NCBI GenBank assembly: GCA_028283825.1
Contig: JAPWJW010000001.1
Location: 1,488,001 to 1,552,000, forward strand
Direction: 5' to 3'
Source of the DNA: Azospirillaceae bacterium
GTDB taxonomy: Bacteria > Pseudomonadota > Alphaproteobacteria > Azospirillales > Azospirillaceae
DNA: 64,000 nt
The position numbers and the translations under genes were made by a program. This document shows positions 2,077 through 25,202 of this stretch, piece by piece. The notes under the pieces were generated by a model that was not told the origin of the DNA, searched no databases, and saw nothing but the letters and a program-made list of their open reading frames with translations. Each line of letters begins with the position of its first letter. Positions within the stretch are counted from its first letter, which is position 1.

Positions 2077-2227
2077 TCCTATTAATCAAAACCACAAGAA
2101 CAACGCCACCATCCTGCCCAGCGCACCACACAGTGATCGAGGCCCGCCCCTTACGGCTTGGCGGCGTCCCCCGTATCCTGTGCCTTGGGCACCGATGCCA
2201 GCCGTCAGGGAACATGGGAAAGCGCGC

Positions 2228-4783
<2,556 letters not shown>

Positions 4784-4822
4784 CCCTTTCCATTCCAAGC
4801 AAATCCCAGGGAGGATGATCCA

Positions 4823-5593
4823 ATGAACAAACGCAGCAAGCACGCGGTGATGGCCGTGGCCCTGGCCCTCACCGGCCTGATGACCAGCCGCATCGCCCTG
4901 GCGGCCGATGAGCAGCCGCCCAGTGCCGAGCAGATCGCCAAGTGGCACCAGGAAGAGGAGGATCGTTTGCACAACGACCCGGCCTATCTGAACCGCTACG
5001 CCGCCGATAACGAGAAGCTGTTGGCCACGCCGGGCTCCGTCAAGGTGGTGTTCATGGGCGACAGCATCACCCAGCTGTGGGTGGAAAAGACGCCTGATTT
5101 CTTCAAGCCCGGCTGGGTGGGCCGTGGCATCAGCGGCCAGACCACGGCCCAGATGCTGATGCGTTTCCGCCAGGACGTCATCGACCTGCACCCCAAGGTC
5201 GTCCACATCATGGCCGGCACCAACGACTTGGCCCAGAATTTGGGGCCGGTCTCGCCGCAGCAGCTGAAGAACAACATCATGAGCATGGTGGAACTGGCGC
5301 AGGCCCATCACATCAAGGTGATCCTGGCCGGCATCCCCCCGGCGGTGGACTTCAAATGGCGCCCCGGCCTGGATCCGGCGCCCAAGATTGCCGCCCATAA
5401 CGCCTGGCTGAAGGACTACGCCGCCAAGGTCGGCGCCCTGTATGTCGACTACAAGGACAGCGTCGGTGACGACAAGGGCGACTTCAAGCCCGGCTTGGCC
5501 TCCGACGGCGTGCACCCGACGCCGGCGGGCTATGCCGCCCTGGACCCGCAGGCCGAGAAGGTGGTGGAAAAGGCGCTGGCCGAGGCGAAGTGA
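4823..5593 (+). CDS. secreted SGNH/GDSL esterase
   Basis: SGNH-family serine hydrolase, probably a carbohydrate O-acetylesterase. A Shine-Dalgarno GGGAGGA precedes the ATG. The 256 residues begin with a signal peptide ending near ALA-ADEQ. All four SGNH blocks are visible: GDSIT with Ser81, the Gly in GRGISGQTT (Gly102), GTND with Asn134, and DGVHPT with Asp228 and His231. It lies directly behind the GH3 gene and before a bidirectional terminator. Xyloglucan galactosyl residues are often O-acetylated, so removing acetyl groups before GH35 acts would fit; the substrate is inferred, not visible. Confidence 0.85.
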   Translation: MNKRSKHAVMAVALALTGLMTSRIALAADEQPPSAEQIAKWHQEEEDRLHNDPAYLNRYAADNEKLLATPGSVKVVFMGDSITQLWVEKTPDFFKPGWVGRGISGQTTAQMLMRFRQDVIDLHPKVVHIMAGTNDLAQNLGPVSPQQLKNNIMSMVELAQAHHIKVILAGIPPAVDFKWRPGLDPAPKIAAHNAWLKDYAAKVGALYVDYKDSVGDDKGDFKPGLASDGVHPTPAGYAALDPQAEKVVEKALAEAK

Positions 5594-5650: not shown

Positions 5651-6877
5651 TTATGCCGCGTCCGCCAGCGCCGGCCGGGGGGCGTGGCGCAAGGGCAGGC
5701 CCAGGGTACGGAAGGTGGCGGCGCGCCACAGCCATTCCAGCGGGCCGTAGCGATAGTGGCGCAGCCACCAGTGCGCCAGGGCGCATTGCAGGGCGACGAA
5801 GACGATACCGGCGCTGACGCTGTAGAACGGCCCCATGAAACGGTAGAGCCCCAGGCCGAAGCCGTAGAACAGCGGCACGAAGACCAGGGCCTGGCTGACG
5901 TAGCACGTCAGGCTCATGCGCCCGAAGGAGGCCAGGGCGCGGATGGGCGCCAGGCCTTGCAGGCGGGGATACAGCAGGACGAAGCCGCTGGCCCAGATGG
6001 CCATTTGCGCCAGGCCGCAATAGGCCCCGGCCAGGCCCGCCACCTCGATGTGGGTGGTCATGGGCAGGCCGGCCCCATCCGCCAGGCGCTTCAGGGGATA
6101 GAACACGGTGAAGGCCAGGGCGCCGCCGGCCAGGACGCCTTGCAGCAGGCGGCGGTGCTGGTCGGGGCGTTCCAGCACGCGGTTGCGTCCCACTACCACG
6201 CCCACCAGGAACAGGCCCATCATCTGAAGATAACGCCCGGTCTCGAGGGTGAAGAAGGTGCGGGCCAGCAGGCCGTCCCACAGGTTGGCCTTCACCACGT
6301 CGATAAGGCCGCCATCGGCATAAATGGGGGTCAGGCGCTCATAGACCGACCAATGGAAGGGGAGGGGCGGCGGCGGCAGGCGCCCGCTCAGCAGGCCTTC
6401 CACCAGCCACAGGGTGGGCGGCTGGATCAGCAGCACCGCCGCCAGGACCAGCAGCGCCCGGTCGCCCATGCGATGCAGCAGCACCAGGGGGGCGCCCATC
6501 ACCGCCAGGATGCCCAGGATGTCGCCGCAATAGATCAGGCTGTGCACCCAGCCGATGGCGGCCAGCACGGCCAGGCGCCACAGGAAACGGGCGTTCGGGT
6601 TGCCGCCCTTGCGCGACCAGCTGTCCAGGATCAGGGAAAAGCTGATGCCGAACATCAGGGCGAAGATGCCGTAGGCCTTGCCGCCGAACAGGAAAAAGGC
6701 GGTGTCGTTGGCGGCGCCGTCAAAGGGCTTCAGCCACGCTGGCGGATCGGTGGGCCCGCGCAGGAAATCGAAATGCTCGATGGTGTGCAGCAGGAACAGG
6801 CCCACCAACGCCGTTCCCCGCAGGGCGTCGATCACGGTGATGCGGTTGCCCGCCCCGGATCCGGATGATGTGGCCAT
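5651..6877 (-). CDS. DUF418 / YeiB-like multi-pass membrane protein
   Basis: Inner-membrane protein of 408 residues with about ten hydrophobic segments. The N-terminus (RITVIDALRGTALVGLFLLH) is typical of the acyltransferase-like/DUF418 family: a first helix with the DxLRG motif, followed by FGGKAYGIFALMFG. The C-terminal DUF418 part contains SFGRMSLTCYVSQAL. Relatives include heparan-alpha-glucosaminide N-acetyltransferase-like proteins, and a role in transmembrane acyl transfer is often proposed, but no substrate is known. It starts 38 nt after the first halogenase gene on the same strand, so it is probably the last gene of that receptor-halogenase unit. Confidence 0.8.
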   Translation of the reverse strand: MATSSGSGAGNRITVIDALRGTALVGLFLLHTIEHFDFLRGPTDPPAWLKPFDGAANDTAFFLFGGKAYGIFALMFGISFSLILDSWSRKGGNPNARFLWRLAVLAAIGWVHSLIYCGDILGILAVMGAPLVLLHRMGDRALLVLAAVLLIQPPTLWLVEGLLSGRLPPPPLPFHWSVYERLTPIYADGGLIDVVKANLWDGLLARTFFTLETGRYLQMMGLFLVGVVVGRNRVLERPDQHRRLLQGVLAGGALAFTVFYPLKRLADGAGLPMTTHIEVAGLAGAYCGLAQMAIWASGFVLLYPRLQGLAPIRALASFGRMSLTCYVSQALVFVPLFYGFGLGLYRFMGPFYSVSAGIVFVALQCALAHWWLRHYRYGPLEWLWRAATFRTLGLPLRHAPRPALADAA

Positions 6878-6915
6878 GAGGCGTCCCGTTGTTCCTGACC
6901 GTCAGCCGGTGGCCG

Positions 6916-8439
6916 TCATGCTGCCACCGGCCGGTCAGCCCGGCAATGGCGCTCGATGAAGGCGCGGTGGGTGGGCATGGCATCGGCCATACGGCGCACG
7001 GCCTCGCGGATGCGGGCCAGGCGGGCCTTGACCTCATCCTCCGGCAGCACGTCGGCGATGGGGTCGTAGGATCGCGGCGTCACCCCCTGGCCCAGGAAGA
7101 CGGCCAGCCAGCTGGGTTCCACGAACAGCTGGTCGTCGAAGCGGGCGATGCGCCCCCGCTCCCGGAACAGTTCGATCTTGTGGGCCAAGCTGTCGGGGAT
7201 GGACATGGTGCGGCAGTAGTTCCACAGCGGCGTGTCGTCCCGTTCCACCGCGTGATAGTGCAGGACCAGGAAGTCGCGGATCTGTTCGTATTCCAGGTTG
7301 GTCAGGCGGTTGTACTCATCCACCGCCGCCTGCTCATACCCAGCGCGGGGCAGCAGCGACAGCAGGCGGAACAGGCCGCTTTGCACCAGATGGATGCTGG
7401 TCGATTCCAGCGGCTCCATGAAGCCGGACGCCAGGCCCAGCGACACGCAGTTCTTGCTCCAGGACTGGCGGCGGCGACCTGCGGTGAAGCGCAGCAGGCG
7501 GGGATCGGCCTGGGGCTTGCCGTCCAGGTTGGCCAGCAGGGTGCTGGCCGCCTCATCATCGTTCAGGAAGTTGCTGCTGTAGACATAGCCGTTGCCGATG
7601 CGGTGCTGCAGCGGGATGCGCCATTGCCAGCCGGCCTCCCGCGCGGTGGAGCGGGTGTAGGGCGTGATCTCCTCGACCCCTTCGCAGGGTACGGCCAGGG
7701 CGCGGTCGCAGGGCAGCCAGCGCGACCATTCCTCGTAGGAGGTCTGCAGGGTCTGGCCGATCAGCAGGGCGCGGAAGCCGGAGCAGTCGATGAACAGGTC
7801 GCCGGCCACCCGCGTGCCGTTTTCCAGCAGCAGGTGGTCGATGAAGCCATCCTCGCCCCGCTGTTCCACGCGGATGATCTTGCCCTCCGTCCGCTTCACG
7901 CCGTGCCGTTCGGCATGCGCGCGCAGGTACTGGGCATAAAGGCCGGCGTCGAAATGATAGGCGTAGGAGACCAGGGGCGGCCGGGCGTCGGGCGCCGGGA
8001 TCTGGAATTTGCCCTTATAGGCGGCGACCGTGGCCGGGGAGTAATCCTCGATGGGCGTGGTGTCCCCCATGGCCCGCTGGCGCAGCCAGTAATGATGGAA
8101 GGACACGGCCTCGATGCCGTGGCCATGGGGCCCGAAGGGATGGAAATAACTGTGGTCCAGCCGCGTCCAGTTGCGGAATTCGATGCCCAGCTTGAAGGTC
8201 GCCTGGGTCTGGCGGATGAAGTCCACCTCGTCGATGCCCAGCATGTGGTTCAGGAACTGGATGGGGGGGATGGTGGCCTCACCCACGCCGACGGTACCGA
8301 TCTCGGCCGATTCCACCAGCTCGACACTGCCGTAGCGGCCTTTCAGCACGCGGCCCAGGACGGCCGCCGCCATCCAGCCGGCGGTGCCGCCACCCACGAT
8401 CACGATCTTGCGCGCGCCGTTCGCCGCATCGGTCATCAT
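6916..8439 (-). CDS. flavin-dependent tryptophan-halogenase family protein (halogenase 1)
   Basis: FAD-dependent halogenase-family enzyme of 507 residues. I chose the ATG at 8437-8439 because GGGGAG precedes it and the dinucleotide-binding motif GGGTAGW then falls at residues 16-22. The family's Lys, which forms the haloamine in PrnA/RebH, is present in [11 protein letters not shown] (Lys83). The WxWxIP signature is intact as WQWRIP, and the active-site Glu region EPLESTSI is present. It lies downstream of TonB receptor 1 behind a probable terminator and upstream of DUF418. Relatives beside TonB receptors are common in Caulobacter- and Xanthomonas-like bacteria. They halogenate indoles in vitro at best, and their natural substrate is unknown. 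Family secure, function open. Confidence 0.88.
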
Positions 8440-8570
8440 GCCGTCTCCCCTGATTGGCGGTCTGCGCCGCTTTGATGAGCGCACTGTAGTTGAACAAAAG
8501 GCGGCGGAACATGGGCATCCGCCGGTTTCCCGGACGGGCCCCCTGCGCCAGCCGCCATGAAGTTTCGCCA

Positions 8571-8620
8571 AGAGAAAACCCGAAGGGGCCGCCCATCCGG
8601 TGAAGATGGGATGGGCGGCT
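8571..8620 (-). terminator. probable terminator/attenuator between TonB receptor 1 and halogenase 1
   Basis: On the minus strand, GCCGCCCATCC (8609-8619) pairs with GGATGGGCGGC (8588-8598), followed by CCTTCGGGTTTTCTC. A strong stem then a T-rich tract just inside a same-strand gene pair suggests less halogenase than receptor transcript. Confidence 0.65.
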
Positions 8621-8644
8621 GGCCCGCGGGGTACTGACCTGACC

Positions 8645-11569
8645 TTAGAAACTGCCGCGGACGACGAAGGCGTAGCGCCGGTCGGCATCGACCCAGTTGT
8701 GGAAGGTCAGGTGTCCGGGATAACCCACCAGGATACGGGTCTGGGAGTCGGTGAGGTTGGCCGCTTCCACGCCCACCTTCAGGTACTTGTTGACGGTGTA
8801 GAAGGCGGAGGCGTCCAACTGGCCGTAGTCGTCGGCCCAGGCCGGGATGTTGATGTTGGCCGCCGACGTGGTCAGCAGGTAGCGCTGACGCCAGTTGTAG
8901 GCCAGGCGCACCTCCACCGGGCCGTACTGGTAGATGCCGGCCAGGTTGTAGCTCCACTTCGACATGCCTTCCAACGGCATGCTGACGTTGGTCAGGTTGA
9001 CGTTGCTGACCTGGGTGCTGTCGTAGGGATTGGCTGCGGCGTTGCGCGCGCCCTCACTCTGCACGAAGGTCACGTTGCCCTGGAAGCCCAGGCCGCTCAG
9101 CAGGCCGGGCAGGAAGTCGTAGAACTGGGTGTAGTCGAACTCGAAGCCGCGGATGTTGCCCTGGCCGGCGTTATAGGGCTGCGACACCAGGACCGGACGG
9201 GTCACGCCGTTGTTGGTGAAGTTCACGTAGGCCGGCGACGTGGTGATGAAGTTGAACACGTCCTTGTTGAACAGGGCGGCGGTGATGCTGCCCGTCGGCG
9301 CGAAGTACCATTCGATGGACGTGTCGAACTGGTTGGACTGCATGGGCTTCAGGTTCGGGTTACCGGCGGCGCCCGTGAACTGATAGACGCAGTTGCCGGT
9401 GGTGGCCGCACCGGCGGACACGCAGGTCGAGCCATTGAGCGTGCCCAGCGTGCCGCCGATGTTGATCGACGGCTGCAACTGCGAGAAGTCGGGCCGCACG
9501 ATGGACTGGGCGAAGGCGAAGCGCCACTGCAGTTCGTCCGTGAGCTTCAGGCGCAGGTTAACGCTGGGCAGCACGTCGGTGTAGTTGCGGCCGCCGCTGA
9601 CGACCGTGCGGGCGCCGTTGAGGTAGGCCAGGTCCTGCGGATCATCCGTCAGGCCGGTCGGCATGACGAAGTTACCGCTGCCCAGGCCCTTGGCGTCGGT
9701 GTTGACGATGCGGACGCCGAAGTTGCCGTCCAGCGTCTTGTTGCCGCCGAAGAAGGGCACGTCATGCTCGAACCGCAGCAGGCCATAGCCGGCCGTGGTC
9801 TCTTCGGTCTGGGTGTTGATGCCCGCACCACCGCCGTTGAAGCTGGAATAGTCGCCGTTGAACGGCGTCCAACCGCTGCCCAGGCTGTAGGTCGCCAGGT
9901 TTTGGACGGCCTGTGCGAAGCCCTGGTAATAGGCCTTGGTCGATGTGGCGTTGGGGATGATGAAGTTGGTGGGGACGCTGACGCCGCCGCGGTAGAAGTC
10001 CGACAGGTTCCACACGCTGGTGGTCGCGGCACCCGGCTGGCTGGTGGCGAGCGTCTGGAAGTTGCTGCCCCAGGTCTGGACGACCCCGCCCCAGTTATAA
10101 TTGGTTTCGCGCGTGATCGACTTGCGTTCCGTGTGACGCACACCCAGGCGGAAGGACTTCAGCCAGTCATTGTCGTCGAAGGTGTACTCGGCGTCGGCAC
10201 GCTCCGCCCACTCATGCGCCTCGTTGTTGTTATGATAGTCCATCGCCGCGTTGTAATAATAATTCGCGGGATTGGTGATGAACGCGCTGTTCGCCGGAAT
10301 GTTGATGGTCGGCAGGTTGGCGCCGTTCAGGGTCAGCGTGGCCGCCGGGATGGGGCTGGTCAGCGCCTCGAACATCGTGAAGTCCAGCTGCTTGCTGGTG
10401 GCGTCGATGTACTGCACATCGCCGCTGAACGTCCAATTCTTGGTCGGCGTCCACTTCATGTGCAGCGAGTAGTCGGACGTGACCGAATTCTTGATATCGT
10501 ACCGGCTGTCGATGACGTCGGGGTTGTTGGTCGTGCCGCCCGCCGTATCGGCGATGGTGCCGGAGATGAAGTTGCCGTCGGCATCGTACTTGAAGCTGGT
10601 GCCGGCCGCCGGGCCGTTGGCGGTGCCGGAGTCCAGGCCGATGGCGTTCTCCAGCGACTCTTCCGTCGATTCAGAACGGATGTACTGGGCCGTGAACTCC
10701 AGATCCTTGTTGGGACGCCACTGCAGCGCGCCGACCACGCCCTTGCGCTCGCGCTGGAATTCCAGGCTGCGATAGCCGAAGCCGGTGGGGACCTGGACGG
10801 TCTGGCCGGGCACCAGGTCGGTGCGGGTCTGGAAGGGGTTGACGGACACGGTGTCCGTGCGGCTGGAGAACATGCCGTCGGCAACGTCGAGTAGCACACC
10901 CACTTCGCCGATGCCGGTGTCCCAACGGTCGCTGTACAGCGCCGAGCCCGACATCTTCCCCTTTTTGACCAGGTCGCCGTAACTGTAGTCGGCGGAATAA
11001 GCAATGATGCGATCTTCGCTGTCGAAGGGCAGGCGGGTGCGCAGGTTGATGGTGCCGCCCAGGCCGCCTTCGATCAGGTCGGCCGAGGGGTTCTTGTACA
11101 CGTCCACGCCGGCCATCATTTCCGACGGCACGTCGGCAAAGCTCAGCGTGCGGCCGGACTTGGCGGAGAAGCTGTCGCGACCGTTGAATTCACCGCGCAC
11201 CCAGCTGATGCCGCGGACCTGGACGCCGTCGCCTTCGACCGAGATGCGGTCGGCGTCGCGTGGGTCGGGGGTGCGCTGGATGGTGATGCCGGAGATGCGC
11301 TGCAGGGCTTCCGTCACGCTGCGGTCGGGCAGGGCGCCGATGTCGGTCGCCGTGATGGAATCCACGATCTGTTCGGAGTTCTGCTTGATGGCCTGCGAGC
11401 TTTGGATGCTTTTGCGCAGGCCGGTGACGACGATCTCTTGCAAGTCCTCGTCGGCAGGGGCGGCGGTGGTTTGTGCATGTGCGAAGGTGGCGGCCGACAA
11501 GGCGCCCATCGACAGCACCGAAGCACTGGCCAAAACGAAGTTACGATACGGGTTTTTTGAGCGACTCAT
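8645..11569 (-). CDS. TonB-dependent receptor 1, Caulobacter type
   Basis: Outer-membrane receptor of 974 residues for active uptake of large substrates, energised by TonB-ExbBD. It has a signal peptide ending at FAHAQT, a TonB-box-like [10 protein letters not shown] near residue 41, a plug domain ([16 protein letters not shown], then [15 protein letters not shown] and [15 protein letters not shown]), and a 22-strand barrel ending in the aromatic [11 protein letters not shown]. The plug has the extra acidic/[13 protein letters not shown] segment typical of the Caulobacter-type subfamily. Its promoter carries a LacI-type operator. Within a xyloglucan-type enzyme locus, an oligosaccharide substrate is likely. 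It is a paralogue of the second receptor, with the same gene order behind it. Confidence 0.93.
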
Positions 11570-11665
11570 CGCGTTTCCCTTCCCTGAATTATATTATTCC
11601 GCGCTATGCGCACGGCTGTTTTTGACAAGGGGACACATTGCCGCGTCATCCCTTGGTCATATAAA

Positions 11666-11716
11666 TCCATATGGCAGTTTTTGCGGAGTTGCAACCAAAG
11701 AATGTTAGCGCTCACA
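11666..11716 (-). promoter_or_regulatory. TonB receptor 1 promoter with LacI-type operator
   Basis: On the minus strand, -35 TTGCAA (11689-11694), a 17-bp spacer and -10 TATGGA (11666-11671) precede a leader of about 90 nt. The operator TGTTAGCGCTCACA (plus-strand reading) lies at 11703-11716, 8 bp upstream of the -35. It differs from a perfect palindrome TGTTAGCGCTAACA at one position. The same arrangement recurs before TonB receptor 2. Confidence 0.65.
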
Positions 11717-11928
11717 TCAAAAATGCATGCAATCTTTCATCCAATGTTAAGGAATTGGGCGCGGCCAAAAATGCCCAGGCGTTTCAGCAACTAAGGGATG
11801 TTGCCGCAACGCGCTGTCGGTCAATGTGCCGGGGGATTGGCAATCGCCTCTGGGGCGATGGCGCGCGCAAGGGCGCCCGTCCGCGGCGGCGGCGGGGGCA
11901 GCGCGCTGAATCCGCACAAACACCGACG

Positions 11929-11952
11929 CCGGCTGCACGCTTGTGCAGCCGG
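11929..11952 (-). terminator. stem-loop behind halogenase 2
   Basis: Perfect 10-bp stem CCGGCTGCAC / GTGCAGCCGG with a 4-nt loop, 35-60 nt beyond the halogenase 2 stop codon. The following minus-strand sequence has only short T runs, so it may be a weak terminator or an RNA-end stabiliser. Confidence 0.5.
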
Positions 11953-11986
11953 TCGCCTGTCAGCGAAGGATGAAACGGGGGAGAGT

Positions 11987-13618
11987 TTAGCGCGGCAGGC
12001 CGGCGATGCCGCTCGTCAGGGGGCTGCCGGCCAAGGGCGCGCGGGTCGGGCGCAGGCCGTGGCGGTAGATTTGCGCGACCAGGTCGCGATGGCGGGGCAG
12101 CAAGGTCAGGGCGCGGTCCGCCTGCTGGCGGATGGCGGCGAATTCCCGCTTGGCCTCGTCCATGAAACGGAAGGCGCCGGCCTTGGCGCGGAGGTCCGTC
12201 TTGTATCCCATGCCGTACAGCACGAACTGCCAGCTGGAATCGGTGAAGGTGTCGATGTTGAGGTCGAAGTCCAGCGCGTCGGGCGGGCGGTGGCGCCAGC
12301 GGTCCAGCAGGTCGGCCAGGCTGTCGGGCACGGTGGCGGCGTCGGCGTTGTCGCGCCAGAAGGCGCTGTCGGTCCGCTGTGTCAGACAGTAGTGCATCTT
12401 CAGGAAATCGATGGCGCGCTCATAGCGCTGCAGCATCACCCGGTTGAACTGGCGCGCCGCCGTTTCCATCTCGCCCGCCCAGGGGAACAAGGTGGTCAGC
12501 AGGGCGGCCGCCACCTCGACCTGGACGATGCCGGTGGATTCCAGCGGCTCGAGGAAGCCGCTGGCCAAGCCGATGGCCACGCAGTTGCGCACCCAGGGTT
12601 TGGGGCGATAGCCGGCCTCGAACCGGAAGGCGCGGGCGGTCTTGCCTTCTGAAGCCGCGCCCAGGTATCCCCGCAGCACCTCTTCCGCGCGGGCGTCGTC
12701 GGTGTGGTCGGAGGAATAGACGTAGCCGGTGCCGCGGCGGTTCTCCAAGCCGATGTCCCAGGTCCAGCCCGCCTCGTGCGCGGTGGCGCGGGTGTAGGAG
12801 GGGATGGGCGCGTCCGGCCGGTCGTAGGGCACCTGCATCGCGACAGCGCGATCACAGAACAGCCACTTGCGGCAGGATTCATAGGGCGACTTCAGCGCCT
12901 GGCCGATCAGGCGCGCGTGGAAGCCGGTGCAATCGATGTAAAGGTCGGCTGACAGCTCGCCATGTTCCTTGGTGACGATGGCGGCGATGGCACCGCTTTC
13001 ATCCAGGCGGACATCATCCACCGTGCCCACGACATGCCGCACGCCCAGATCGATGCCGACCATCCGCAGCAGGCGCGCGAACTTCACGGCGTCGAAGTGA
13101 TAGGCGTAGTTCAGGCGCGCGGCATAATCCTCATCGCCCGACCGCTTGGGCGCCAGGGCGGCGTCGGCCACCCGCTTTTGCAGGATCACCGCCTCATCCA
13201 GCGGCACATCCTTGCCGGCGGCCCCCAGAAGCCAATAGGGCAGCAGGTCCAGGTTCTGCGGCGTCATCGCCGTCTGGAAGGGGTGGAAATAATGGTCGCG
13301 GCCGGGGCTGCCGGGGGCATGCTGCCAATGGTCGAAGCGGATGCCCTGCTTGAAGGTGGCCTCGGCTTCTCGCAGGAAGACGGACTCGTCGATGCCGATG
13401 CGGCTGAGCGTGCGCTGGATATGGGGGAAGGTGCCTTCGCCCACGCCCAGGATGCCGATGTCGGCCGATTCCACCAGGGTGATGCGGGCCCCGCCCGGCT
13501 GTGAGATGGCCAGCGTGCGGGCGAGATAGGCGGCCGTCAGCCAGCCGGCCGTGCCGCCGCCGACGATCAGGACGTTCTTGACCGGGGCTTGGTCTGTTGC
13601 GGCCTGGGGATGCGCCAT
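11987..13618 (-). CDS. flavin-dependent tryptophan-halogenase family protein (halogenase 2)
   Basis: Second halogenase-family flavoenzyme, 543 residues. The frame extends to an in-frame TTG at 13642, but the ATG at 13616-13618 is better placed behind GGAAGG. GGGTAGW is at residues 20-26, the family Lys is in ATFKQGIRF (Lys90), and EPLESTGI marks the active-site Glu region. The WxWxIP signature reads WTWDIG, so its last Pro is replaced by Gly; this could change substrate-channel geometry. It lies 120 nt downstream of TonB receptor 2 on the same strand. Function is unknown, as for halogenase 1; the two are clear paralogues but not near-identical. Confidence 0.87.
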   Translation of the reverse strand: MAHPQAATDQAPVKNVLIVGGGTAGWLTAAYLARTLAISQPGGARITLVESADIGILGVGEGTFPHIQRTLSRIGIDESVFLREAEATFKQGIRFDHWQHAPGSPGRDHYFHPFQTAMTPQNLDLLPYWLLGAAGKDVPLDEAVILQKRVADAALAPKRSGDEDYAARLNYAYHFDAVKFARLLRMVGIDLGVRHVVGTVDDVRLDESGAIAAIVTKEHGELSADLYIDCTGFHARLIGQALKSPYESCRKWLFCDRAVAMQVPYDRPDAPIPSYTRATAHEAGWTWDIGLENRRGTGYVYSSDHTDDARAEEVLRGYLGAASEGKTARAFRFEAGYRPKPWVRNCVAIGLASGFLEPLESTGIVQVEVAAALLTTLFPWAGEMETAARQFNRVMLQRYERAIDFLKMHYCLTQRTDSAFWRDNADAATVPDSLADLLDRWRHRPPDALDFDLNIDTFTDSSWQFVLYGMGYKTDLRAKAGAFRFMDEAKREFAAIRQQADRALTLLPRHRDLVAQIYRHGLRPTRAPLAGSPLTSGIAGLPR

Positions 13619-13677
13619 GGTGCGAACCTTCCCTTGGGGCAACCCGTGGGTGCCCGATCTAGTCCCATAATGGACGA

Positions 13678-13706
13678 AACCCCCGGCCCATGACAGGCCG
13701 GGGGTT
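13678..13706 (-). terminator. stem-loop between TonB receptor 2 and halogenase 2
   Basis: AACCCCCGGCC (13678-13688) pairs perfectly with GGCCGGGGGTT (13696-13706). The minus-strand T tract is only three bases, so read-through into the halogenase gene is likely. The position mirrors the terminator between receptor 1 and halogenase 1. Confidence 0.6.
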
Positions 13707-13738
13707 CCATCTACGCTGCTGCTGACCCGTCGCCGGGA

Positions 13739-16576
13739 TCAGTAGTTGAAGCGGATCGTCATGGTGTAGCGACGATCGGCCACGAACCAGCTGCGGCCGT
13801 ACTGCTGGCTGCCGTAACCCATCAGCGTGTGCGTGACGCTGTTGGTCAGGTTCTGGCCTTCCACGCTGACGCTGATGTTGTCGTTGAAGTTGTACGCCAC
13901 CGACGCGTCCAGCTGACCGAAGCTGTCGGAGAAGATGGGCAGGTTGTAGACGACGGTGTCGCCGGCGCTGTTTGTGTAGGTGCCGTTGGTGCCGTTGGCC
14001 GTCGGGGTCAGCAGGTACTTGCTGCGCCAGGTGTAGGCCAAGCGGGCCGAGATCGGGCCTTTCTCGTACATGCCGGTGATGTTGTAGTTGTAGCGCGACA
14101 GCAGGTCCACCGGCAGGCCGGTGATCCGGTTGCCCAGCATGTCGTAGGACAGGTCGCCGGGGCTGCGGCTGTAGATGTAGGTGAAGTTGGTGTCGATGCC
14201 CAGGCCGTCGAACGGGTCGGGCAGGAAGGTGAAGAACTTCTGGATGCCGAATTCCGCACCCTTGATGTAGGCGGCCGGGGTGTTGAAGTAGCCGCTGACC
14301 GATGCCGTCATCGGGGTGACGCCGCTGGGCAGGTTGAAGGGCTCCGTCACCGACGTCACGCCGTAGGAGATGTAGTCCTTGATCTGCTTGTAGAAGCCGG
14401 CCAGGTGAACCTGGCTGCCGTCGGGCATGTACCACTCGATGGAGGCATCGAGGTTGTTGGCCAGCTGCGGCTTCAGGTTCGGGTTGCCCGACGACGCGGT
14501 GGCGCCGTTGACATTGCGGTCGGTGTCGGTGGTCAGGCTCAGGCTACCCGCAGCACTCATGGCGCTGAAGCTCGGGTTGCTCATCGTCTGATAGGCGGCG
14601 AAGCGCAGGTGCACGTCGTCGTTCGGCATGAACTGGATGTTGAACGACGGCAGGGCCATCATGCTGTTGTGGCCACCGGAGTTGGTGGAATAACCGCCCG
14701 GCAGGTCGATCAGCTGGCCCTGGTAGATGACCTGGCCGGTCGGCTGCTGGATGGCGCCGTAGCTGCTGTTCTCGGTGTTCACGAGGCGAACGCCGAAGTT
14801 GCCGTTCATCTTCCAGCCGCTGCTGAAGAGGTTGTCTTCACCGAAGCGGGCCATGATGTAGGCGGATTCGGTCCGCGTCTTGGTGTGGGAGACCGTGGCC
14901 TCGTTGTAGGTCACCGGCTGGGTGGTGTCGCCGGCCGTGCCGTACAGCTGGTGGATGAGGCTCAGGTTCTCCGGATACCCCTTCACCAGCGACCAGGACG
15001 GGATCCAGGCCACGCCCGGCAGGCTGGTGGCGCCGCGGAAGAAGTTGCTGAAGGAATACAGGCTGGCGTTGCCGGCCGCGGCGGCATTGACCAGGGACTG
15101 GCTGGTGTCCAGGCCGGTCCAATTATAGCTGGAGACGTTGTCCTTTTCCGTCCGGTCGGCGAAGCGGGCGCCCACCTTGAACGAACGCAGGAAGCCGCTG
15201 TCGGAAACGTGGTAGTCGGCATCGCCGGACCAGGCGAACTCACGACCGTAGTGGTTCTCCAGGTGATCCATCGTGGCGCTCCAGTACGTGTTGGCCGGGT
15301 TGGCCAAGCTGGAGGCGTTGTTGACGGTGATGACCGGCAGGTCACCGGTCAGGTTGATGCCGTAGCCCGGGACCGTCGTCGTGGAGAACAGGTCGATGCG
15401 TTCCTGCTGCGACTGCGACACCGCGTACTGGAAGTCGGAGGTGATGGTCCAGTTCGACGTCGGCGTCCACTTGAAGCCCTGCGACAGGTCGGTGGTGACG
15501 TTGTGCTGGACGGTGTAGCCCGGATTGATGGAGGCGGAACCGCCGGTACCCGGACTGGTGGTCGAGGTTAGCGAATTGGACGACAGCAGGCCGCCGTTGC
15601 TGCCGAAGACGCTATCGCTGTCGGCAGCCACGTTGACGTTGACGCCGCCCTGGTTGTAGACGCCGGTTTCCTGCGACGTGCTCCAGTAATCCGAGCGGAA
15701 GCCCGTCTGGTAGAAGGTCAGGTCGTTGCTGGGCGACCATTGCAGGGCTTCGTAAGCGCCCAGGCGCTTGCGGTCGAAGGTTCCCGAGCGCCAGTCGAAA
15801 CCACCGGGGACGTAGACGTCCTTGCCCTGGTAGGTCTGGGGAAAGTACGGCTCGACCTGGATGGTGTCGTGGCGGGTGCTGATGTCGGAATAGGCGACGT
15901 CGAACATGGCGCCGACTTCGCCGATACCGGTCTGCCAACGGTTGGCGTACAGCAGCGAGCCGCCGGGGCGGGTCTGGTCGATGAAGTCGCCGTAGCTGGC
16001 GGAGATGGAGCCGCTGATCGTTTCCTTGTCATAGTCGAACGGCAGCTTGGTGCGCATGTTCACCGAACCGCCGATGCCGCCTTCGATGACGTCGGGCGAG
16101 CCGCTCTTGATCACATCGATGCCGGCCAGCAGCTCGGGCGGGACGTCTTCGAACAGCAGGGCGCGACCGCCGTTGGCGCTGAACGCCTCACGGCCGTTCA
16201 GGGTGCTGCTGACCTGGCTCAGGCCGCGCACCGTGACGCCGGACCCTTCCACCGAATAGTGGTCGGGGTCGCCGACGGCGGCGAAGTGGGTGATGGACAC
16301 ACCGGGAACGCGCTGCAGCACTTCCGTGACGCTGTTGTCCGGCAGCTTGCCGGCCTCGTCGGCCGAGATCGAGTCAAGGATCATGTCGGCCGCCGCCTTG
16401 CGCTTGTTGGCGTCGGACAGGGCGTAACGCTGGCCGGTGACGACGATTTCCTGCAGGTCGTCATCCGCGGCGGCGGTCTGGGCCTGCGCGAAGGCGGCCG
16501 TGCTGAACGCGGTCAGGACCAGCGCGGAGGCGCCAGCCAGCACGAAAGAACGATAGGAATCTTGGGGCCTTCTCAT
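13739..16576 (-). CDS. TonB-dependent receptor 2, Caulobacter type
   Basis: Outer-membrane TonB-dependent receptor of 945 residues. It has a signal peptide ending FAQAQT, a TonB-box-like [12 protein letters not shown] near residue 40, plug motifs (SVTEVLQRVPGVSI, VRGLSQVSSTLNGRE, DVIEGGIGGSVNMRT), and a beta-barrel ending in RRYTMTIRFNY. The leader sequence before the ATG is almost the same as that of receptor 1, and the promoter has the same layout plus a second LacI-type site. The halogenase 2 gene follows. The proposed cargo, xyloglucan oligosaccharides or a related glycan, rests on the surrounding hydrolases only. Confidence 0.93.
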   Translation of the reverse strand: MRRPQDSYRSFVLAGASALVLTAFSTAAFAQAQTAAADDDLQEIVVTGQRYALSDANKRKAAADMILDSISADEAGKLPDNSVTEVLQRVPGVSITHFAAVGDPDHYSVEGSGVTVRGLSQVSSTLNGREAFSANGGRALLFEDVPPELLAGIDVIKSGSPDVIEGGIGGSVNMRTKLPFDYDKETISGSISASYGDFIDQTRPGGSLLYANRWQTGIGEVGAMFDVAYSDISTRHDTIQVEPYFPQTYQGKDVYVPGGFDWRSGTFDRKRLGAYEALQWSPSNDLTFYQTGFRSDYWSTSQETGVYNQGGVNVNVAADSDSVFGSNGGLLSSNSLTSTTSPGTGGSASINPGYTVQHNVTTDLSQGFKWTPTSNWTITSDFQYAVSQSQQERIDLFSTTTVPGYGINLTGDLPVITVNNASSLANPANTYWSATMDHLENHYGREFAWSGDADYHVSDSGFLRSFKVGARFADRTEKDNVSSYNWTGLDTSQSLVNAAAAGNASLYSFSNFFRGATSLPGVAWIPSWSLVKGYPENLSLIHQLYGTAGDTTQPVTYNEATVSHTKTRTESAYIMARFGEDNLFSSGWKMNGNFGVRLVNTENSSYGAIQQPTGQVIYQGQLIDLPGGYSTNSGGHNSMMALPSFNIQFMPNDDVHLRFAAYQTMSNPSFSAMSAAGSLSLTTDTDRNVNGATASSGNPNLKPQLANNLDASIEWYMPDGSQVHLAGFYKQIKDYISYGVTSVTEPFNLPSGVTPMTASVSGYFNTPAAYIKGAEFGIQKFFTFLPDPFDGLGIDTNFTYIYSRSPGDLSYDMLGNRITGLPVDLLSRYNYNITGMYEKGPISARLAYTWRSKYLLTPTANGTNGTYTNSAGDTVVYNLPIFSDSFGQLDASVAYNFNDNISVSVEGQNLTNSVTHTLMGYGSQQYGRSWFVADRRYTMTIRFNY

Positions 16577-17411
16577 GGCGTTTCCCTTCCCTGGATTATC
16601 TTTTTCCGCAGGAGTTTCCCCTGCGGCTCTTGGCGGCCCGGGTGCAGCCTTACTGGCACGTCATCCCGTAGTCATATAAATGCATAGGGGAGTTCAAACG
16701 GCCGTGCAATGGGAGAATGTTAGCGCTCCCATGAAAAATGTTACCGCTACCGTCTTTTACAGTATGGCGTGATATTTTTGCAAATAAGTTCAGTGAGTTC
16801 GCAAAACAATCTGCTCGGACGCGAGCGCGAAAGACATCTGAAAACGCTCCACCAACAGTGGCGGAAGGGTGGCGGCCAAGAGGGCGCATTCCGCTATAAT
16901 ATATATAAATTACAATGGCTTGATCGTGAGAATTTCAATGCCGCCAAAGGGTCGATGCATGCCTTTGGTCCAAGGGGAAGGGTGACAAGTTGTCGCAAGA
17001 ACAATGTTAGGGTGAAATATGCCTTATTGCAAATAAAGCAGGTTGACCCTATGCCTTTAGTATTGTAGTGCCCATTTTACAATAATCGTGTCATTTCGGT
17101 GGCCCTATTAATTCGCCGTTTTGATTGATTGAGCGGCGACTAAATCGAAGCTTGGTTAATGGGCTTTATGACATGGATTTCATGATAGACAAGCGGACGT
17201 CACCCCCGGTGCGCGGGGCAAGATTGCCGGTTCGGTTTCACAAACTGATCTCGTTTTAATGCCGCCGGCCACGGCAATGCCTGGCGCGGGCGGTGCTGCC
17301 GCGCGGTATGACCGGGACGATGCGAGATCGCATCCCGGCCGCCTTTCGACGGTGGTCGGCCGCTGTCACGTGACAGTTCGCGACTCTGGCAGGCGAAGGG
17401 GGAGGGACCGC
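16577..17411. other. 835-base intergenic region, partly AT-rich
   Basis: The left 175 bases hold the receptor 2 promoter and operators. From about 16750 to 17200 the sequence is clearly AT-richer than the rest of the window, with runs such as TATAATATATATAAAT near 16895. Short open frames exist here, but none has a good ribosome site or recognisable protein. From 17200 to 17411 the composition returns to normal without a gene. It could be a large regulatory region or a decayed insertion. Confidence 0.5.
16681..16752 (-). promoter_or_regulatory. TonB receptor 2 promoter with two LacI-type sites
   Basis: Minus-strand -35 TTGCAC (16704-16709), a 17-bp spacer and -10 TATGCA (16681-16686). Upstream lie TGTTAGCGCTCCCA (16718-16731) and TGTTACCGCTACCG (16739-16752), 21 bp apart start to start, i.e. 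two helical turns on the same DNA face. The first resembles the site before receptor 1 and xylX; the second resembles the sites before GH35 and lacI. Confidence 0.62.
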
Positions 17412-18278: not shown

Positions 18279-19928
18279 ATGACAAGCGTTCTGGACACGC
18301 GCCTGATGGGGGCGAAGGCCCTGGGCCGCTCCATGCTGATGGCCGCCACCGTGCTGGCGGGCATGGCCCCGGCGGTGGGCGCGCACGCCGCCGACACTAC
18401 CGAGATGCCGCGCCTCGTGCGCCAAGATGGCCGTTTCGCCCTGATGGTCGATGGCGCGCCCTATCTGGTGCTGGGCGCCCAGGCCAACAACTCCAGCAAC
18501 TGGCCGGCCATGCTGCCGCAGGTTTGGCCGGCGGTGGAGCAGGTGCAGGCCAACACCCTGTTCATGCCCATCGCCTGGCAGCAGATCGAGGCCAAGGAAG
18601 GCCAGTTCGACTTCAGCTTCCTGGACACGCTGCTGACCCAGGCGCGGGAACATGACAAGCACCTGGTGCTGCTGTGGTTCGGCACCTGGAAGAACAACGG
18701 CCCCGCCTATGCGCCCGACTGGGTGAAGCTGAACAACGACCGCTTCCCCCGCGTGGTCGATGCCAAGGGCCTGATGCGTAATTCGCTGTCGCCGCTGACA
18801 CCGGCAACGCTGGAGGCGGACAAGAAGGCGTTCGTCGCCTTCATGCGCCATCTGAAGCAGGCAGATCCGCAGCACACCGTCATCATGGTGCAGGTGGAGA
18901 ACGAGACCGGCACCTACGGCGCCGTGCGTGACTTCCGGCCCGAGGCGCAGAAGGTGTTCGAGGCCAAGGTGCCGGACGACCTGGTCAAGGCCCTGCACAA
19001 GCAGCCGGGCACCTGGAAGGAAGTGTTCGGCAAGGATGCCGACGAGTTTTTCCACGCCTGGCACATCGCCCGCTTCGTCGACCAGGTGGCCGCCGCCGGC
19101 AAGGCCGAATACCCCATTCCCATGTACGTGAACGCCGCCCTGCGCGACGCGTTCAAGGACCAGGACCCCTACACCTATTCCAGCGGCGGCCCGACCTGGA
19201 ACGTGCTGGACGTGTGGAAGGCCGGGGCCCCCAACATCGACATGATCGGCCCGGACATCTACGACCGCGGGTACGAGTTCTATACCAAGACGCTGGAGCA
19301 GTATAAGCGGCCGGACAACGCCCTGATGGTGGCGGAGACCGGCAACGACCAGGTCTATGCCCGCTATATCTTCGCCACGCTGGGCCACCAGGGCATCGGC
19401 TTCGCCCCGTTCGGCATCGATTACACCCGTTATGTGAATTACCCGCTGGGTGCGGCGAAAATCGATCCGGAATCCCTGGAACCGTTCGCCATGAACTTCC
19501 GCCTGCTGGGTTCCATGAACCGCGAGCTGGCGGCCCTCAGCCTGAAGGGCAAGGTGTGGGGGGCGTCGGAACCGACGGCGGAACACAGCAACGTCCTGGA
19601 CATCGGGCCCTATAAGGCCACCATCAGCTATGGCATGCCGCAATTCGGCGATGCCAAGCCCACGGGCAACGACAAGCTCAACGGCGGCGTGGTGATCGCC
19701 GAGCTAGCGCCCAACGAGTACCTGGTGGCCGGCTACCACGCCCGGGTGGAGTTCGCCCAGACCACCAAGACCGGCAAGAACGGTTTCATGCTGGCCAGTG
19801 TGGAGGAGGGGCACTACCAGGACGGCAAGTGGGTGTTCGACCGCCTGTGGAATGGCGACCAGACCGACTACGGCTTGAACTTCACCTCCGCCCCGCAGAT
19901 CCTGAAGGTGCGTTTCGCCACCTACTGA
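18279..19928 (+). CDS. GH35 beta-galactosidase (DUF5597 type)
   Basis: Retaining beta-galactosidase that would remove the galactosyl cap from xyloglucan side chains in the periplasm. GGGAGGG stands about 8 nt before the ATG. The 549 residues start with a signal peptide (LMAATVLAGMAPAVGAHAA), then the GH35 barrel: MVQVENETGTYG with the acid/base Glu about residue 209, and LMVAETGN with the nucleophile about residue 353. The C-terminal region is the DUF5597 type seen in Bgl35A-like enzymes of Cellvibrio and Xanthomonas xyloglucan loci, not the large plant or fungal type. GH31 follows after 78 nt. Confidence 0.88.
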   Translation: MTSVLDTRLMGAKALGRSMLMAATVLAGMAPAVGAHAADTTEMPRLVRQDGRFALMVDGAPYLVLGAQANNSSNWPAMLPQVWPAVEQVQANTLFMPIAWQQIEAKEGQFDFSFLDTLLTQAREHDKHLVLLWFGTWKNNGPAYAPDWVKLNNDRFPRVVDAKGLMRNSLSPLTPATLEADKKAFVAFMRHLKQADPQHTVIMVQVENETGTYGAVRDFRPEAQKVFEAKVPDDLVKALHKQPGTWKEVFGKDADEFFHAWHIARFVDQVAAAGKAEYPIPMYVNAALRDAFKDQDPYTYSSGGPTWNVLDVWKAGAPNIDMIGPDIYDRGYEFYTKTLEQYKRPDNALMVAETGNDQVYARYIFATLGHQGIGFAPFGIDYTRYVNYPLGAAKIDPESLEPFAMNFRLLGSMNRELAALSLKGKVWGASEPTAEHSNVLDIGPYKATISYGMPQFGDAKPTGNDKLNGGVVIAELAPNEYLVAGYHARVEFAQTTKTGKNGFMLASVEEGHYQDGKWVFDRLWNGDQTDYGLNFTSAPQILKVRFATY

Positions 19929-20006: not shown

Positions 20007-22919
20007 ATGAACGTTCGTTCCTGGGCGATGGCCTCTGCCGCCCTGGTGCCCGCGCTGCTGTTGGCCGCTTGCGGCCATGTAATCGATGACAAGACCCCAG
20101 TCGCGCAGGCGCCGGCGGCGAAAAACTTCCAGCAGACCCCCGATGGCGTGGTGGTGGCGGTCACCGGTGCCGCCGTCCACAAGGTCCGTTTGCAGGTCGT
20201 CAGCGACCGCATCATCCATGTGACGGCGGTGCCGGTCGACAGCCTGGACCTGCCCGCCAGCCTGATGACCATCGCCAAGCCCGCCGTCGGCGGCTTCCAG
20301 GTGGCGGAGCAGGGCGGCCGGGTGGTGCTGACCACGCCCAAGATGCGGGCGGAGGTTGCCGTGGCCACCGGCGCCGTCGCCATGTTCGACGCCAAGGGCC
20401 AGCCCTTGCTGGCGGCGGTGGATGGCGGCAGCTTCAAGCCGACCACCCTGATCACCGGCGAGCCGGGTTATTTCCAGGTGCGCCAGCAATTCAATTTGGG
20501 CACCGACGAGGGCTTCTACGGCCTGGGCCAGCACCAGAACGCCCAGATGAACTACAACGGCCAGGATGTCGAGCTGGCCCAGCACAACATGGACATCGGC
20601 ATCCCCTTCGTGGTGTCGACGCGCAATTACGGCGTGCTGTGGGACAACAACGGCATCACCCGCTTCGGCGATGCCCGCGAATACCCGCTGCTGTCCAAGG
20701 AGTTGAAGCTGTTTGACGCCGACGGGCATGAGGGCGGGCTGACCGCGCGTTATTATGAGGGCGGCAAGCTGAAGCTGACCCGCAATGAGCCCGACATCAA
20801 TTACCAGTACATCAAGGACCTGGCCGCCTGGCCGGTCGAGGTCGGCGGCAGCCGCGTCGATGCCAAGGTGCGGGGCACCAAGGACAAGTCCGTGGTGTGG
20901 GAGGGCAAGGTCGAGTCCGCGGTGGACGGCGTCCATCGCTTCCAGGTCTATGCCAGCGGCTATTTCAAGGTGACCCTGGACGGCAAGGTGGTCATGGACC
21001 GCTGGCGCCAGGACTGGAACCCCTGGTACCACAACTTCGATCTGCCCATGACGGCCGGCAAGGCCCAGACCCTGAAGGTGGAATGGGTGCCGGAGGGCGG
21101 CTTCATCGCCCTGCTGCACCAGGATCCGCTGCCCGAGCCTGAGCGGCACGATTTGTCGCTGACCTCCGACGTGGCCAAGGCCATCGATTATTACGTCGTC
21201 GCCGGCCGCGACATGGACGACGTCATCGCCGGTTACCGCCAGCTGACGGGCAAGGCGGTGATGATGCCCAGCTGGGCCTACGGCCTGTGGCAAAGCCGCC
21301 AGCGCTACAAGACGGCGGACGAGTTGACCGACACCGTGGCGCAGTTCCGCAAGCGCGGCCTGCCGCTGGATAACATCGTGGAGGACTGGTTCTACTGGCG
21401 CGAGGACGACTGGGGCAGCCACAAGTTCGACCCCACGCGCTTCCCGGATCCGCAGGGGCTGGTGGACACGCTGCACGGCCAGCACGCCCACTTCATGATC
21501 TCGGTGTGGCCCAAGTTCTATCCCACCACCGACAACTACAAGGAACTGGACGCCAAGGGCTTCATCTACCGGCGCAATGTCGAGGTGAAGGAGCATGACT
21601 GGGTGGGCAAGGACGGCTATCTCAACGCCTTCTACGACCCGTATTCACCCGAGGCGCGGCAGATCTATTGGCGCCAGATCAATGAGAACCTGAACCGGCT
21701 GGGCATCGACGCCTGGTGGCTGGACGCGTCGGAGCCGGACACCCACTCCAACCTCGACATTCCGGAGCGGATGCGGCGCATGGGCCCCACCGCCATGGGC
21801 CCGTCGGCGGCGCTGTTCAATTCCTTCCCGCTGATGCACACCACCGCCGTGTACCAGGGCAACCGCGCCGCCAACCCGGACCGGCGCGCCTTCATCCTGA
21901 CCCGCTCGGGCTTCGCCGGGCAGCAGCGCAACGCGGCGGCCAGCTGGAGCGGCGACGTCGCCTCGCGCTGGACCGATCTGCGCAACCAGATCTCGGCCGG
22001 CGTCAACTTCTCGCTCTCCGGCGTGCCCAACTGGACGACGGACATCGGCGGCTTCGCTCTGGAAAAGCGCTATTCCGCCAAGAATCCCAAGGCGTCCGAC
22101 GTGGCGGAATGGCGGGAACTGAACCTGCGCTGGTTCCAGTTCGGCGCCTTCTCCCCCCTGTTCCGGTCGCATGGCGAGTTCCCGTACCGGGAGATCTACA
22201 ACCTGGCGCCCAAGGGGTCGGAGGTCTACGACAGCCTGGTCTGGTACGACCAGCTGCGCTACCGCCTGATGCCCTATATCTACACCCTGGCGGCCGACAC
22301 CTATCACCGCGACGGCACCATCATGCGCGGCCTGGTGATGGATTTTCCCCAGGATCGGCAGGTCTGGGACATCAACGACCAGTACCTGTTCGGCCATGCC
22401 TTCCTGGTGGCGCCGGTGACGGACTACCAGGCGCGCAGCCGCGAGGTCTACCTGCCGGCGGGGACGCAATGGTACGACTTCCAGACCGGCAAGCGGTATG
22501 AGGGCGGCCAGCGCATCGCCGCCGATGCGCCGCTGAAGCGCTTGCCGCTGTTCGTGCGGGCGGGGTCCATCGTGCCCACCGGCCCGGTGATCCAGTACAC
22601 TGGCGAAAAGCCGGACGCGCCGCTGACCGTGGTGGTCTACACCGGCGCCAACGGCCAGTTCGACCTGTATGAGGATGAAGGCACCACCTACGGCTATGAG
22701 CACGGCGCCTTCAGCCGCATCCCGCTGAGCTACGACCAGGCCACCGGCGCCCTGACCATCGGGGCCCGCACCGGCAGCTTCCCCGGCATGGTGCAGAACC
22801 GGGTGGTCAATGTCCGCTTCATCGGGCCCGGTACGAAGGCGCCGGCCGACTTCACCGCCGCACCGGATCAGACGGTGCAGTACACCGGCCAGCCGGTCAT
22901 TGTCCGGCCCAAGATCTAA
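20007..22919 (+). CDS. GH31 alpha-xylosidase lipoprotein with PA14 insert
   Basis: Retaining alpha-xylosidase that releases xylose from the non-reducing end of xyloglucan oligosaccharides. The 970 residues start with a lipoprotein signal whose lipobox is LLAAC (Cys about residue 22), so it is membrane anchored. The N-terminal beta-sandwich is interrupted by a PA14-like domain at about 245-370 (ARYYEGGKLK, VHRFQVYASGYFKVTLDGK). This layout is known from Cellvibrio Xyl31A, where the insert helps bind xyloglucan oligosaccharides. The catalytic barrel shows WWLDASEPD with nucleophile Asp573 and SWSGDVASRW with acid/base Asp650. It is the strongest single clue to xyloglucan as the substrate. Confidence 0.9.
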   Translation: MNVRSWAMASAALVPALLLAACGHVIDDKTPVAQAPAAKNFQQTPDGVVVAVTGAAVHKVRLQVVSDRIIHVTAVPVDSLDLPASLMTIAKPAVGGFQVAEQGGRVVLTTPKMRAEVAVATGAVAMFDAKGQPLLAAVDGGSFKPTTLITGEPGYFQVRQQFNLGTDEGFYGLGQHQNAQMNYNGQDVELAQHNMDIGIPFVVSTRNYGVLWDNNGITRFGDAREYPLLSKELKLFDADGHEGGLTARYYEGGKLKLTRNEPDINYQYIKDLAAWPVEVGGSRVDAKVRGTKDKSVVWEGKVESAVDGVHRFQVYASGYFKVTLDGKVVMDRWRQDWNPWYHNFDLPMTAGKAQTLKVEWVPEGGFIALLHQDPLPEPERHDLSLTSDVAKAIDYYVVAGRDMDDVIAGYRQLTGKAVMMPSWAYGLWQSRQRYKTADELTDTVAQFRKRGLPLDNIVEDWFYWREDDWGSHKFDPTRFPDPQGLVDTLHGQHAHFMISVWPKFYPTTDNYKELDAKGFIYRRNVEVKEHDWVGKDGYLNAFYDPYSPEARQIYWRQINENLNRLGIDAWWLDASEPDTHSNLDIPERMRRMGPTAMGPSAALFNSFPLMHTTAVYQGNRAANPDRRAFILTRSGFAGQQRNAAASWSGDVASRWTDLRNQISAGVNFSLSGVPNWTTDIGGFALEKRYSAKNPKASDVAEWRELNLRWFQFGAFSPLFRSHGEFPYREIYNLAPKGSEVYDSLVWYDQLRYRLMPYIYTLAADTYHRDGTIMRGLVMDFPQDRQVWDINDQYLFGHAFLVAPVTDYQARSREVYLPAGTQWYDFQTGKRYEGGQRIAADAPLKRLPLFVRAGSIVPTGPVIQYTGEKPDAPLTVVVYTGANGQFDLYEDEGTTYGYEHGAFSRIPLSYDQATGALTIGARTGSFPGMVQNRVVNVRFIGPGTKAPADFTAAPDQTVQYTGQPVIVRPKI

Positions 22920-23025: not shown

Positions 23026-23080
23026 CGATGCATCCCATCAGTGGATGCGCCAAAAATAATTGGGAGGGGCAGTAAAGCGC

Positions 23081-25190: not shown

Positions 25191-25202
25191 AGGAGCGGCC
25201 CC

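Follow-up and report, generated by a model that had tools for sequence, protein, structure and literature searches.

The 64,000-nucleotide stretch of an Azospirillaceae genome analysed here (the window; the source genome has 7.16 Mb) carries on its minus strand two TonB-dependent receptors, TBDR1 and TBDR2, and two flavin-dependent halogenase family proteins, FDH1 and FDH2, in the order TBDR1, FDH1, TBDR2, FDH2, followed by a DUF418 membrane protein (Table 1). A sequence-only reading had described this arrangement as receptor, stem-loop and halogenase occurring twice on one strand, with DUF418 last, and the coordinates, the Pfam and NCBIfam matches and the hairpins confirm it. As for the substrate of these flavin-dependent halogenases (FDHs), we favour a reading that is quite possible though still short of probable: the enzymes would modify, probably by halogenation, a loop Trp of their partner receptors.

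The two receptor/halogenase modules

Regarding family membership, PF04820 matched FDH1 and FDH2 over the whole domain with 465.8 bits (2e-139) and 659.9 bits (2.7e-198), respectively, at a cut-off of 21; the two receptors scored 671.7 and 597.6 bits with TIGR01782 of NCBIfam (curated cut-off 310), and both have the Pfam plug and barrel domains. FDH1 and FDH2 are 38% identical and the receptors 37%, and in a tree of 147 FDHs the enzymes called type 2 (48 sequences, support 1.0) are set apart from the rest. By sequence, FDH1 and FDH2 thus fall into separate deep clades of halogenases (type 1 and type 2). On these identities and clades, the modules are not a recent duplication, and the tandem duplication of one module that the sequence-only reading had implied was rejected.

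In the alignment, GxGxxG and the catalytic Lys and Glu are present in both enzymes, and the catalytic Lys and Glu and both Trp of WxW are kept in all 147 FDHs. The motif WxWxIP reads WQWRIP in FDH2 and is not matched in FDH1, which has WTWDIG; the Pro is replaced by Gly in 87 of 98 type-1 FDHs and is present in 47 of 49 type-2 FDHs. The nearest PDB entries to FDH2 are 9luq, Xcc4156 (6y1w) and BrvH (6frl); the indole-brominating BrvH and Xcc4156 group with it at 498 and 525 bits, with GxGxxG, Lys and WxWxIP alike, and the text of their papers that was compared does not mention a TonB receptor partner. For FDH1, the nearest solved relatives are 2pyx (418 bits), 9lu2 (395) and 9ltb (379), all titled tryptophan halogenases.

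Both types often occur together: among 27 loci from the genome-contig set with at least two FDHs, 21 have both types and six have type 1 only; since the loci were selected by their similarity to a profile with FDH1 at its head, the first FDH is almost always of type 1. The order receptor, type 1, type 2 is found near DUF5597 in Sphingomonas (L038, which also has GH31) and in Sphingobium (L039); tandem pairs of type 2 also occur (L010, L022, L026, L027, L030 and L031). Nitrospirillum amazonense has a syntenic locus, with an FDH1 that is 78% identical, and the source genome is probably Nitrospirillum-like. The double module is present in five of the six other genomes of the same genus that were fetched; the sixth (L021) has a single receptor with a single type-1 FDH, so that the second module can be missing as a unit. 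A DUF418 gene lies 3′ of the module in all six.

Promoter elements are common to both receptors: the 13-mer AGCGCTAACATTC has exactly two copies in the whole genome, upstream of TBDR1 and of TBDR2, and a second element, TTTATATGAC-N-A-N-GGGATGACG, upstream of both receptors, gave two matches as compared to none in shuffled sequences. Only the exact 13-mer and this second element are above chance; with up to three mismatches, the first operator motif was found 3 times in the window for 1.24 expected, which is not above chance. Considering the window and the six genomes of the same genus, the core GAGCGCTAACA is upstream of 10 of 13 FDH-linked receptors, and a hairpin with a T run, judged by eye, lies 3′ of all 13; its position between receptor and FDH suggests a higher output of receptor than of enzyme. 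The LacI-family regulator of the locus is a candidate binder of the operator-like elements.

Table 1. Coordinates of the two modules, their regulatory elements and the neighbouring glycan genes (positions in the window)
Feature	Position	Strand	Remarks
TBDR1, TIGR01782 TonB-dependent receptor, clade F	13739..16576	-	loop Trp W486, codon 15119-15121
FDH1, type-1 flavin-dependent halogenase family protein (2pyx-like, WxWxIG)	11987..13618	-	
TBDR2, TIGR01782 TonB-dependent receptor, clade F	8645..11569	-	loop W493 (codon 10091-10093) and W500 (codon 10070-10072)
FDH2, type-2 flavin-dependent halogenase family protein (BrvH/Xcc4156-like, WxWxIP)	6916..8439	-	
DUF418 membrane protein	5651..6877	-	Pfam match; end of module
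GGAGCGCTAACATTC, operator-like element upstream of TBDR1	16715..16729	-	
TTTATATGACTACGGGATGACG, second shared promoter element, TBDR1	16659..16680	-	
GC-rich terminator-like hairpin with T run, TBDR1/FDH1 gap	13660..13700, approximate	-	sequence, fold
TGAGCGCTAACATTC, operator-like element upstream of TBDR2	11700..11714	-	
TTTATATGACCAAGGGATGACG, second shared promoter element, TBDR2	11644..11665	-	
GC-rich terminator-like hairpin with T run, TBDR2/FDH2 gap	8570..8622, approximate	-	sequence, fold
GH95, runs off window edge	3..1871	-	
GH3 (2048-4783) and SGNH/GDSL hydrolase (4823-5593)	2048..5593	+	
GH35/GH42-like protein with DUF5597	18279..19928	+	glycan-locus neighbour
GH31 with PA14 insert	20007..22919	+	glycan-locus neighbour
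LacI-family regulator	23060..24145	+	

Halogenase linkage and receptor tryptophans across genomes

In the source genome, seven of the eight FDHs adjoin a TonB receptor, and the eighth (L012) adjoins a Na/H exchanger. Over five genomes, a TIGR01782 receptor is found no more than 3 kb from 36 of 48 FDHs, where random placement would give 1.5, and 29 of the 89 TIGR01782 receptors are FDH-linked; for this count, split matches were merged and one weak FDH match each in G000 and G017 was excluded. The sequence-only reading had tied the enzymes to the receptors and had named chance-level co-occurrence as the contrary outcome; the opposite was found, and this co-occurrence, together with the promoter elements common to the receptors, backs a receptor-tied role. 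Among 80 loci of the genome-contig set, a receptor is within 5 kb in 67 and SapC within 6 kb in 51, and Cupin_8 is found in 28, GH3 in 21 and LacI in 20. Of the 13 loci counted as receptor-less, seven (L050-L055, L058) make up a clade that resembles L012, and six of these have the same antiporter in the vicinity; L037 and L101 start at a contig edge, and in L086 the receptor is 5.07 kb away. Related FDH stretches in proteobacteria amount to at least 589 in one scan.

Some individual loci deserve a mention. The receptor-free FDH clade near the Na/H exchanger comprises L012:8670-11493, in the source genome, and L050, L051, L052, L053, L055 and L058, mostly from sphingomonads; its exchangers are 71-80% identical between loci, and a VapC-like toxin gene is present in some. 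At L014:5179-12363, 23 kb from the window, a receptor, a type-1 FDH, SapC, Cupin_8/JmjC, LacI, GH3, a carboxylesterase and a major facilitator superfamily transporter lie in a row. Finally, at L011:6708-14924 the FDH comes after a FecIR-controlled receptor with an STN domain, and the gene after it encodes a protein of 661 aa without a Pfam match.

The search for receptor residues that go with the linkage was based on residue-blind scans of FDH-linked versus unlinked receptors within a clade; an initial contrast across clades was confounded by the clades and was replaced by these within-clade tests. For clade F, that of TBDR1 and TBDR2, a search of 99 genomes of one other family with this receptor clade gave a match in 57; 80 receptors were fetched with about 2.3 kb of flank, of which 79 were usable (L251 gave no usable receptor) and 37 linked. 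Over 44 linked receptors, excluding L260 and L265, which are linked and lie outside the clade, 101 columns were conserved at 95% or more, and three of these residues were absent from all five basal unlinked receptors: a plug Ser and two Trp. The Trp pair, in a motif like YNWxxLxxxW, is present in 44 and 43 of the 44 linked receptors and in none of 36 unlinked outgroup receptors; TBDR1 is the sole linked member that lacks the second of them. When 53 linked receptors were compared under a different aligner setting, two of 89 columns emerged, the Ser and the first Trp, with the second Trp at 94%. At the Trp site, the unlinked relatives mostly have Tyr or Phe. A fresh set from a third family gave both Trp in 14 of 14 linked receptors (L350 gave no usable receptor); as for its three unlinked close relatives, L367 and L375 are without the pair and L366 has both.

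A rule assigning one Trp to type 1 and two to type 2 fails on L040, which has both Trp with only a type-1 FDH seen. Separately, L269, L270, L271, L367 and L375 are clade-F or near receptors that stand beside DUF5597 without an FDH in the visible flank; four of them also lack the loop Trp, which is present in L269.

Clade D is separate from clade F and has the cassette type TBDR-FDH1-SapC-Cupin8-FDH2. In its 43 linked receptors 86 columns are invariant, and one of these residues is absent from all 11 unlinked sisters: a Trp, in an xWF motif, which sits in a different loop from the clade-F Trp. Within the clade, a sub-clade has a type-2 FDH, and its Trp column aligns with the clade-F Trp; ancestrally, this column held Tyr or Phe, and W is present in 15 of the 16 receptors that have a type-2 FDH no more than 7 kb away, as against 3 of the 26 that do not. 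In the exception among the 16 (L106), the type-2 FDH stands by another receptor, and the three with W and no type-2 FDH seen are L099, which ends at a contig edge, L112 and L114. A residue-blind comparison of the 15 type-2-bearing receptors with 23 type-1-only and 11 unlinked ones, leaving out L099, L112, L114, L106 and L265 as ambiguous, returned 3 of 126 columns, namely Thr, Asp and Trp; as a background, Trp accounts for 17 of 986 split-specific columns (∼1.7%) in 54 other splits of the receptor tree.

Among the fresh clade-D loci, 28 receptors have a cassette that includes an FDH; 27 of these have the clade-D Trp, L302 being the exception, and all 11 with a type-2 FDH in the cassette have Trp at the clade-F site. 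Enzyme types in this set were read from bit scores, L307, one of the 28, duplicates the receptor L014 from the first set, and L312 and L329 are near-identical at the sites. Two further features were seen in this clade: receptors such as L073, L091 and L111 have Asp/Asn before the loop Trp (QRDNW, QRNDW) where Cupin_8/JmjC is in the cassette, and type-1-only members often have CxYCGY at the loop-Trp position.

Regarding the position of these residues, the AlphaFold model of TBDR2 has a mean pLDDT (predicted local distance difference test) of 75 and a pTM (predicted template modelling score) of 0.79, with the loop itself below 50, and that of the Caulobacter receptor L056 has a pLDDT of 84 and a pTM of 0.82. 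In TBDR2, W493 and W500 come just after the strand 470-491; in L056, W350 ends the strand 327-350 and the clade-F site is just after the strand 504-523. Each time, a short turn comes before and a longer loop after; given the known fold of TonB receptors, this suggests the outer face, and both the clade-D and the clade-F sites are therefore predicted to be in extracellular loops at the outer strand ends. Foldseek returned ordinary TonB receptors for TBDR2, with Fiu as the best match.

Proposed receptor modification and its alternatives

The mechanism that we propose tentatively is one in which each outer-membrane TonB receptor would be made together with its own FDH. No export signal is recognisable at the FDH N termini, so that the enzymes are probably cytoplasmic and would act on the unfolded receptor before its export; there, they would recognise a single Trp or two paired Trp destined for an extracellular loop close to where the glycan enters. 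The change would most likely be bromination or chlorination of the indole ring, and the modified Trp may tune sugar stacking or loop stability. Type-2 enzymes, FDH2 included, would be paired with the Trp after barrel strand 9, and type-1 enzymes with the Trp after strand 5 in clade D. A more ambitious version, which we regard as conceivable rather than likely, is a two-enzyme, two-site Trp halogenation of glycan receptors in three proteobacterial classes, with type 2 serving the strand-9 loop, type 1 the strand-5 loop, and SapC and the JmjC-type Cupin_8 as further modifiers or helpers. By the type-2 enzyme BrvH, indole is brominated slowly and free Trp is not, and according to the authors its pocket could admit larger substrates (PMC5945002); a Trp in a receptor chain would fit such a pocket, and this favours modification of the receptor before export. 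The sequence-only reading had listed three possible substrates, an aromatic group of the plant polymer, the receptor and a signalling metabolite; of these, it is the receptor that is backed by sequence evidence.

Several observations weigh against receptor modification. TBDR1 adjoins a type-1 FDH, yet it carries the Trp of clade F and lacks a clear clade-D motif. In clade D, the cassette of L302 includes a type-2 FDH, its clade-D site is Tyr and its genome is without any type-1-scoring FDH; conversely, 8 of 23 receptors from the fresh clade-D search have the clade-D Trp without a visible FDH, two of them in genomes without a PF04820 match at 1e-30 (G661, G378), and five receptors keep this Trp in genomes whose FDHs all score as type-2-like. 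In clade F, 16 of 22 unlinked receptors keep the Trp; for 14 of them only 1.5 kb of flank is visible. Thirteen come from family f174, eight of these with a further receptor neighbour in the flank, and are perhaps xyloglucan receptors of the Xanthomonas type. Fifteen of the 16 form one nested group that includes L190 and L366 (support 0.70, 0.31), so that, with modest support, linkage looks lost once and not never gained. When exact tree sisters are compared, the clade-F split gives one specific column, which is not Trp, because the sister group then contains the linked L032 and the unlinked L194, which both have W. The within-clade test gave no decisive result for clades A, B, C and E: the last three are too small, and for clade A the phylum search matched 5 of 398 genomes, too few to test, with no usable receptor by the receptor profile at four of the five loci. 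The independent gains of Trp are few, about one per clade and the L032/L194 lineage, so that shared ancestry explains much, and we know of no modified receptor. The strict rule that Trp is present if and only if an FDH is adjacent is broken by the fresh counterexamples of both clades; given the unlinked carriers and exceptions such as L302, Trp looks close to necessary for the linkage and insufficient alone.

Other explanations have to be considered, starting from the substrate. This may be a small aromatic molecule (indole, a plant phenolic, a signal or a weapon) made or imported with the glycan, so that adjacency to the receptor would mean shared regulation only; we consider this rather unlikely. 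It agrees with the promoter elements common to both modules, with the LacI regulators in the loci, with the interpretation of such genes as competition factors in a metatranscriptome study (PMC11337851) and with the bromination of indole by BrvH; however, the activity of BrvH on indole is low and its own authors doubt that indole is the substrate (PMC5945002). Moreover, no aromatic-catabolism or biosynthesis gene set was recognised among the window proteins scanned, and a small molecule does not predict Trp columns in the receptor. Sugar stacking could also suffice to explain the loop Trp, with a linkage to FDHs that is historical and an enzyme target unrelated to Trp: the unlinked clade-F carriers and the few gains discussed above suit this view, as does Xanthomonas, which uses two receptors for xyloglucan oligosaccharides at a locus whose paper, in the available text, does not contain the string "halogen" (PMC8245568). 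It appears unlikely when it is considered that Trp is the single link-specific column, or among a few, in separate clades, and that in clade D it tracks the type-2 FDH at the same loop as in clade F.

The two remaining alternatives question the chemistry or the protein that is modified. Hydroxylation or another monooxygenase reaction on the receptor Trp, in place of halogenation, is improbable for the FDHs, or at least for those of type 1, which have WxWxIG where WxWxIP would stand. The prevalence of the Gly in type 1, the frequent Cupin_8/JmjC neighbours, from a family that includes protein hydroxylases, and a match of FDH1 to the flavin-dependent monooxygenase QhpG of NCBIfam, weak and far below the cut-off (43 bits vs 240), speak in its favour. 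The catalytic Lys and Glu, intact in every FDH of the tree, speak against it, together with the type-2 relatives BrvH and Xcc4156, described as halogenases in their papers. As for another cassette or cell-surface protein or peptide, such as SapC or a lipoprotein, with the receptor as an uptake partner only, SapC is indeed a common neighbour of the FDHs, but it is not in view at the window and at many clade-F modules, and neither gap between receptor and FDH in the window has room for a short peptide gene; this explanation is very improbable.

Among known systems, the PDB entry 5uao, which we take to be MibH, a peptide Trp halogenase from a pathway for ribosomally synthesised and post-translationally modified peptides, has the same fold family (199 bits). 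The Trp halogenases of such pathways act on Trp in a ribosomal peptide; the window differs in that an outer-membrane receptor is the proposed substrate and no precursor peptide was seen. Operons with TonB, JmjC and halogenase genes were reportedly interpreted by Iyer et al. (NAR, 2010) as halogenated-siderophore systems; here, instead, the receptors are in glycan loci and the receptor itself is the proposed substrate. In the literature, modification of TonB receptors by FDHs was not described in the titles and abstract openings among the matches listed, which does not prove that no such description exists. Each of the components (FDHs, TonB receptors, glycan loci) is known, and the function would be new if the receptor proves to be the substrate. 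Proteobacterial "tryptophan halogenases" number hundreds, and those assayed take free indole poorly; receptor modification, if true, would give these enzymes a substrate with the exact residues and masses predicted, would add protein halogenation to the ways in which bacteria tune nutrient receptors, and would provide halogenase biotechnology with a sequence rule for picking peptide substrates.

The glycan locus and its neighbours

The modules are flanked by a gene set of the xyloglucan utilization locus (XyGUL) type, consisting of the two TonB receptors, GH31, the GH35-like protein, GH95 and an esterase; for the GH35-like protein, the GH35 model is below its cut-off, while GH42 and DUF5597 are above theirs. 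GH74 endoxyloglucanase was not found among the 20 window proteins scanned; the remaining window and the genome were not searched for it. The XyGUL of Xanthomonas has two TonB receptors, GH31, GH35, GH95, GH74 and an esterase (PMC8245568), so that receptors, GH31, GH35, GH95 and esterase are alike, and the two halogenases and DUF418 are extra in the window. By its gene content, the locus appears to be a xyloglucan-type uptake locus.

Finally, an isochorismatase-family hydrolase (window 17412-18131) lies on the strand of the modules, between TBDR1 and the GH35-like gene, and directly past the glycan locus (window 24294-26875) a metallophosphatase, a cupredoxin-like protein, a sigma factor of the extracytoplasmic function type and a zinc-finger anti-sigma-like protein are encoded in a row.

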